From the NCBI GenBank assembly GCA_016192135.1, contig JACPUR010000038.1:62001-126000 (forward strand): a DNA stretch of 64,000 nucleotides, written 5' to 3'. A program made the position numbers and the translations under genes. Under the pieces are notes generated by a model. It did not search any database and was not told where the DNA came from. It saw only the letters and a list, made by a program, of their open reading frames with translations. Positions 34,926-38,828 of this stretch are shown piece after piece (positions within the stretch are counted from its first letter, which is position 1; every line of letters begins with the position of its first letter). Source of the DNA: Candidatus Tectomicrobia bacterium (GTDB taxonomy: Bacteria; UBA8248).

Positions 34926-35070
34926 CGTCCAGCTCCTTGGAGACGGGAGTTTCGGAAATTCCCCCGCCAGCATAACAAATCGGGCGGGTTTCCCGAACCC
35001 GCCCGGCCAGGGGCGGCGAGACTAGCATGGCCGGCCGGGGGCCTCAAGGGAGGTGAATCGCCCTCGAGAG

Positions 35071-38396: not shown

Positions 38397-38427
38397 AAAA
38401 AAAATCCCCTCCCGTCTCCGGGAGGGG
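38397..38427 (-). terminator. Intrinsic terminator ending the minus-strand transcript at 38.4 kb
   Basis: On the minus strand an 8-bp perfect stem, CCCCTCCC and GGGAGGGG (38427-38420 and 38413-38406) with a 6-base loop, is followed by A and eight T residues. The orientation serves only minus-strand transcripts. The nearest minus-strand protein gene ends about 400 bases upstream, at 38829. Confidence 0.85.
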
Positions 38428-38550
38428 TCCTGCGGTATAAAGGGTTCGGCATAAACATCGATGATTGCGTGGCGGAGGAGAGCCGACCCGATCGACTGCT
38501 CCATCCGCCTGCCAATCGAGACGTGCCGCCTAGAACGCCCCGACCAGCAC
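38397..38550 (-). ncRNA. Candidate sigma-54-dependent small RNA (~150 nt)
   Basis: A stretch of about 154 bases runs from the start predicted by a perfect-consensus sigma-54 promoter (38577-38561) to an intrinsic terminator (38427-38397). Between them a 10-bp stem with one bulge is visible: GGCGGA plus GGAG (38471-38480) pairs with CTCC and TCCGCC (38499-38509). The only frame in it, starting ATG at 38504, runs straight through the terminator and resembles nothing. The flanking plus-strand gene is antisense to anything beyond the terminator. It is therefore most likely a free-standing regulatory RNA, or the 3' end of the ThDP-enzyme mRNA with its own promoter. I do not recognise a known RNA family. 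Confidence 0.55.
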
Positions 38551-38560
38551 CACTCTAAAT

Positions 38561-38577
38561 AGCAAGCGGCGTGCCAA
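38561..38577 (-). promoter_or_regulatory. Sigma-54 (RpoN) promoter, perfect consensus
   Basis: The minus strand reads TTGGCACGCCGCTTGCT, an exact match to the sigma-54 consensus YTGGCACG-N4-TTGCW, with the invariant GG and GC separated by 10 bases. The downstream side continues T/A-rich (ATTTAGA), as is usual. Transcription would start about 12 bases past the GC, near 38550, and run toward the terminator at 38397. There is no protein gene to serve in that direction. Confidence 0.75.
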
Positions 38578-38644
38578 CCGCCTCGGCGCCGGAACGCACT
38601 GATTTTTCAAGCGTGCTGCCGCGCGGGCCCCGCGGCAAAAGAAC

Positions 38645-38692
38645 ATTTTGTCAGAGGCGGACGGATCGGCGATGGCAAGGCCGGTGACAAAT
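38645..38692. promoter_or_regulatory. Inverted repeat upstream of the sigma-54 promoter, possible activator site
   Basis: ATTTTGTCA (38645-38653) and TGACAAAT (38685-38692) are near-perfect inverted copies spaced 31 bases apart. They lie about 70-130 bases upstream of the sigma-54 promoter. Enhancer-binding activators of sigma-54 usually bind at such distances. The assignment is speculative. Confidence 0.3.
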
Positions 38693-38828
38693 GGTCAATT
38701 TTCGCGGGGAAAAAGGCGGGATGGGGCACGGGCCAGGGATATCCCGCACTGCCTTTCCGTAGAAAACCTCGGCGGGGGGTTTACCGCGCACTGGCGCGCG
38801 GCTTGGCGGAGTGTCCCGCGCGGACGGC

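Follow-up and report, generated by a model that had tools for sequence, protein, structure and literature searches.

What does a perfect sigma-54 promoter serve when the next gene on its strand lies more than three kilobases away? This question is raised by positions 38397 to 38577 of the window, that is, of the whole stretch of 64,000 nucleotides of Candidatus Tectomicrobia DNA that was analysed. A preliminary description of this locus had proposed a sigma-54-controlled RNA of about 150 nt, either free-standing or released from the 3' region of the transcript of a ThDP enzyme. The features on which our analysis is based are collected in Table 1.

Table 1. Features predicted at the locus, in window coordinates.
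Feature	Position	Strand	Basis or remark
Putative activator (enhancer-binding protein) site A, TGACCATTTGTCA	38685..38697	-	121 bases upstream of the -24 box
Putative activator site B, TGACAAAATGTTC	38641..38653	-	77 bases upstream of the -24 box
Sigma-54 promoter, TTGGCAC-N5-TTGCT	38561..38577	-	Consensus match, shuffle test, kept in relatives
Predicted small RNA transcript, about 154 nt	38397..38550	-	Promoter and terminator positions, fold z -5.15
Conserved RNA core, match of covariance model R1	38461..38551	-	96 bits, E 5e-17 (whole genome)
Stem-loop 1	38511..38548	-	Arms 38548-38536 and 38523-38511, loop 38535-38524
Stem-loop 2, GGCGGATGGAG...CTCCTCCGCC	38471..38509	-	Pairing in about 99-100% of cells
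Intrinsic terminator stem-loop	38406..38427	-	Followed by a T-run to 38397; terminator scan

The perfect minus-strand sigma-54 site named in the preliminary description is indeed present. TTGGCACGCCGCTTGCT (38577-38561) matches the consensus at every defined base, with GG at -24, GC at -12 and 10 bases between them, and the window has no other TTGGCACN5TTGCW match, 0.00 being expected from shuffled sequences. The 3.9-Mb genome holds five TGGCACN5TTGCW sites, two of which belong to this RNA, and a reversed-pattern control gave one. Among the 19 copies of the RNA found in the family of the host (see below), 17 have an aligned site at the expected position with 8-10 of the 10 defined bases; several copies from genus g3 carry the variant TGGTATGGCAATTGC, and a similar variant occurs in genome G007.

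The start of the predicted RNA was placed 12 bases past the -12 C. As a minus-strand RNA of 153 nt, the sequence folds 5.15 s.d. better than its shuffled versions (z -5.15) and beats all 200 of them. Stem 1 has 13 pairs and a loop containing the invariant GGCGGCA, while stem 2 reads GGCG...GGAG...GAU/UCG...CUCC...CGCC and coincides exactly with the stem-loop previously noticed at 38471-38509. In an alignment of 15 copies, 98.2% of the pair cells were formed, with compensatory double changes at 10 pairs, and none of 500 shuffles did as well; in a control with slid partners, pairing reached only 36-57%. Enlarging the alignment by newly found copies gave 96.4% pairing and again 10 pairs with double changes, in 20 rows that were fitted to the model and include one short spurious fragment. 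The covariation analysis suggested in the preliminary description yielded compensatory double changes at 9 of the 13 pairs of stem 1, where 93.5% of the cells were paired. Most paired bases of stem 2 are invariant, as is GGCGGCAC, the loop of stem 1 plus the first base of its 3' arm, in all 19 copies. Since stem 1 varies in sequence with its pairing kept and stem 2 is nearly fixed, a constraint beyond pairing is suggested.

The terminator sequence, CCCCTCCCGGAGACGGGAGGGGATTTTTTTT, spans 38427-38397, and a terminator lies downstream of the core in the other copies too. The hairpin and T-run described earlier were found again, with nine stem pairs by the scan instead of the eight reported. New relative to the preliminary description are the hairpin at 38548-38511, which is the first of the two, the activator-type sites before the promoter and the other copy in the genome. 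When sequences were folded singly, stem 2 and a terminator hairpin recurred, and stem 1 appeared in the copies other than that of the window. The most stable fold of the window copy has longer-range pairing in place of stem 1 (-77.1 versus -71.6 kcal/mol with stem 1 enforced), so that the alternative partner is favoured by 5.5 kcal/mol. By inspection, CUCC/GGAG segments are common to stem 2 and the terminator, and no covarying alternative helix was demonstrated. An anti-Shine-Dalgarno role of CUCCUCC was considered and discarded because the motif is not universal, several g3 copies having CTCCGCC, CTCCGTC or CTCCACC.

Searches with blastn using the intergenic region gave matches confined to the host's own family; the longest-reaching ones start exactly at the sigma-54 box, and several stop just beyond the terminator. 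A second copy in the host genome was located in the same way (C14:17640-17756). The covariance model of the core detected the 19 copies in 16 of the 18 family genomes. Every one of the 11 genomes with a completeness of 90% or more and a contamination of 5% or less had a match; none was obtained in G001, which is 67% complete and whose contig ends just past the ThDP gene, or in G005, sole member of genus g4. Outside the family the model found the core in none of 368 genomes, a comparison set in which every listed relative is of kinship 'same domain', with no nearer outgroup. When 84,980 species were scanned with a strict pattern, nine stretches came up, consistent with the family genomes already counted, and the core pattern had no match in the virus collection. 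Nothing in the window reached the gathering score of any Rfam family (release 15), the matches at loose thresholds being at chance level and to other families, and a search of the available literature retrieved no papers on small RNAs in this lineage. Conservation of promoter and terminator in relatives, on which the preliminary description had staked its proposal, was observed for promoter, core and terminator alike. As the cassette and its sigma-54 promoter have been kept across the family, it is very probably a real gene.

In all 16 genomes with the RNA, one copy lies upstream, on the same strand, of a gene for a Gfo/Idh/MocA oxidoreductase, which is followed by a molybdenum-hydroxylase gene (Pfam) in the examined loci whose contig is long enough. 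Paralogues of Gfo/Idh/MocA are numerous in the family, a single genome having as many as 14 matches at E 1e-40. The distance from the T-run to the ATG of the operon is 107-201 bases in nine copies measured, and this gap contains a block that reads like a promoter, e.g. TTTTCC-N17-TATTGT, and is recognisable across genera, so the operon would not need to depend on read-through.

The surroundings of the window copy are different. It lies about 250 bases downstream of the stop codon of the ThDP-enzyme gene, on the same strand, and faces two convergent plus-strand genes, one for a protein of competence type and one for a protein of 187 aa. On the minus strand the next gene begins only at 34973, which leaves 3.4 kb without a same-strand gene downstream. 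Its core is 93% identical to that of the sibling in the host and 96% identical to the single copy in G002, while outside the core window copy and sibling are only 54% (upstream) and 62% (downstream) identical. That sites, promoter, core and terminator were kept as the flanking sequences diverged speaks for selection acting on the window copy. The window copy is a second, transposed one, and the ancestral gene is that at the Gfo/Idh/MocA-molybdenum hydroxylase operon.

More than one copy of the RNA was found in three genomes. Besides the host, G009 (L060:8175-8265) and G011 (L062:13884-13974) have a second copy, which lacks the sigma-54 box and the activator sites and is situated just upstream of a sodium:solute symporter (SSS) gene; in G011 the other flanking gene encodes an ARPP-1 domain. 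In G013 and G006 the corresponding genes are closer together, with no RNA copy between them. The lack of a sigma-54 box in the second copies of G009 and G011 means that the RNA is not always under sigma-54 control.

Upstream of the promoter, a palindromic motif, TGnCA-N3-TGnCA, is conserved and may represent the site of an activator. Site A is strong in the window copy, where it matches 7 of the 8 bases (shuffle p 0.0045) at -121, and in genera g2, g3 and g6, where it lies at about -119 to -131; elsewhere it is weaker or shifted. Site B matches at least 7 of the 8 bases at -75 to -78 in 15 of the 17 copies having a sigma-54 box. The remaining two have 6 of 8 at -77, and one of them is the window copy, whose degenerate site (p 0.03) keeps the offset of the stronger sites in relatives. 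No particular activator could be linked to the RNA: a full TGnCA-N3-TGnCA was absent from the vicinity of all the activator genes of the host and of the three further perfect sigma-54 sites in its genome. Upstream of the core in G014 (L065), four TGnCA-like half-sites are arranged in tandem with 8-base spacing (CGACATTTTGGCAAAATGACACTCTGGCA), which suggests that an activator may bind there cooperatively.

RpoN is encoded in the host (PF04552, E 3e-60) and in 16 of the 18 family genomes, and the host has about ten strong sigma-54 activator genes. Downstream of rpoN on host contig C38 (34000-46000; L104), the sequence suggests genes for HPr kinase, HPr and PTS enzyme I, with metK next. One perfect sigma-54 site of the host (C37:17396-17411; L072) is located shortly upstream of what appears to be the start of a flagellar basal-body rod protein, which makes flagellar genes possible targets of sigma-54 in this bacterium. 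Another (C19:211874; L071/L079) lies about 0.7 kb past the AAA domain of an activator gene, before another gene. Hfq (PF17209) was detected in none of the 18 family genomes by the Pfam model, which a very divergent Hfq could escape; five of the control genomes, E. coli and B. subtilis among them, were positive. CsrA was found in only five of the 18, versus 16 for the RNA. With no Hfq found and CsrA patchy, the usual partners of small RNAs are not obviously applicable, and any pairing RNA would act without Hfq or by means of another protein. RapZ was rejected as a partner because the gene adjoining rpoN reads like an HPr kinase.

Taken as a whole, the sequence evidence indicates that the window probably encodes a free-standing, non-coding small RNA of about 150 nt under sigma-54 control. 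The conservation of promoter, core and terminator and the absence of a conserved reading frame support this part of the original proposal. The RNA has its own promoter and terminator and so forms, by sequence, an independent transcription unit, and the fact that the window copy kept promoter, core and terminator without a same-strand gene downstream points to a free-standing, trans-acting RNA. We envisage that, in response to some nutrient or stress signal, an NtrC-type activator would bind the TGnCA-N3-TGnCA sites and switch on the sigma-54 polymerase. The RNA would then act in trans and without Hfq, its partners being other RNAs or an RNA-binding protein, and most likely make contact via its GGCGGCA loop or via the strands of stem 2 that are invariant. 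That this action consists of base pairing is a tentative proposal, to which we give slightly less than an even chance. Two siblings in the same genome would raise the dose of the RNA or let a second signal feed in, a situation known from Qrr and CrcZ/CrcY.

Instead of acting in trans, the RNA could be a cis-acting leader or attenuator of the riboswitch kind, whose terminator stops transcription or lets it read through into the Gfo/Idh operon, with the window copy as a stray duplicate. The copy directly upstream of the Gfo/Idh gene in 16 of 16 genomes, the second copies just upstream of the SSS transporter gene in G009 and G011, and the highly conserved bases adjoining a terminator, as in aptamer-plus-terminator layouts, speak for this explanation. 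However, a leader should precede the gene it controls in every copy, and the window copy, with its 3.4 kb devoid of a downstream same-strand gene, is an exception that nevertheless keeps sites, promoter, core and terminator. Moreover, a promoter-like block separates terminator and operon, a conserved alternative anti-terminator pairing was not demonstrated, and Rfam matches never rose above chance, loose thresholds included. A cis-acting leader is thus an account of the ancestral position and not of the window copy, and we consider it improbable. It is also unlikely, although worth keeping in mind, that a regulator of the catabolic operon, sigma-54-controlled, specific to this lineage and independent of Hfq and CsrA, was copied to new sites and now works both in cis and in trans; one copying event would then have carried the full sigma-54 unit (window copy) and another, before the transporter gene, would not. 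Sequestration of an RNA-binding protein, in the manner of CsrB/RsmZ or CrcZ, is a variant compatible with the small RNA that we favour and would replace pairing as its way of acting. A protein might bind the invariant sequences of loop and stem, and the sigma-54-driven CrcZ and CrcY do act by sequestration (PMC6296734). Yet a decoy of the CsrB/RsmZ type should be accompanied by CsrA, which is missing from most of the family genomes, as Hfq is from all, against 16 of 18 with the RNA; titration of these two proteins was therefore rejected, and titration in general, for which another protein might serve, appears rather unlikely.

The remaining explanations fare worse. The RNA could arise by processing from the 3' end of the ThDP-enzyme mRNA, as its position about 250 bases past the stop codon, on the same strand and with no terminator found by the scan in between, would allow. 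Against this, it has a perfect promoter and activator-type sites of its own, and none of the ThDP orthologues examined had the intergenic sequence next to it. The release from this transcript that had been offered as an alternative is disfavoured because the RNA is at another locus in relatives, away from the ThDP gene, and we regard it as very improbable. Even less credit is due to a small protein gene. The ATG at 38504 does open a frame of 78 aa in the window, but this frame runs through the terminator hairpin, no reading frame is common to the RNA copies, and conservation tracks RNA pairing. Neither start nor frame is conserved in other copies, in line with the earlier remark that no convincing protein frame is visible, and the small ORF was accordingly rejected; its chances are close to nil.

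The small RNA that we favour can be compared with three known systems. The Qrr RNAs of Vibrio have a sigma-54 promoter and an NtrC-type activator, LuxO, with an activator site of similar geometry (TTGCA-N3-TGCAA). Like the RNA described here, they are siblings that are encoded at dispersed loci and share a strongly conserved core; unlike it, they do not involve a core of two stable hairpins, and there is no sequence or Rfam match between them. The conserved core of Qrr comprises 32 nt (PMC4211561). GlmY and GlmZ of enterobacteria are likewise a pair of small RNAs under sigma-54 control (PMC3162934, PMC7073468), but again no Rfam match was obtained, and the neighbour of rpoN reads in our case like HPr kinase and not like rapZ. 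In Pseudomonas, the duplicated sigma-54-dependent RNAs CrcZ, CrcY and CrcX, activated by CbrB, vary in copy number among species (PMC6296734). Duplication and a predicted sigma-54 dependence are shared by the present RNA, whereas the Crc RNAs sequester the Crc/Hfq system and have no sequence match here. The mechanisms of Qrr and CrcZ would call for Hfq in the same genome, and it was found in none of the 18. RNA family models for Qrr, GlmYZ and CrcZ did not include the RNA, and with the families of Rfam release 15 overall it shares the trait of a structured bacterial RNA with a terminator, no family being matched.

To our knowledge, the well-studied small RNAs driven by sigma-54 come from a few proteobacterial groups. 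A clearly conserved candidate is now added from an uncultured family labelled Tectomicrobia/Nitrospinota, in which Hfq was not found and CsrA is patchy; if the RNA is expressed, the question arises of which partner serves such RNAs without Hfq. With a defined core, a promoter and sites, it is directly testable in a laboratory host, and it adds an RNA family absent from Rfam. Its layout is like that of Qrr, GlmY/GlmZ and CrcZ/CrcY, although by the tests made it is a member of none of them, and it is best called a new, previously uncatalogued RNA family of a known kind, the sigma-54-controlled sibling small RNAs.
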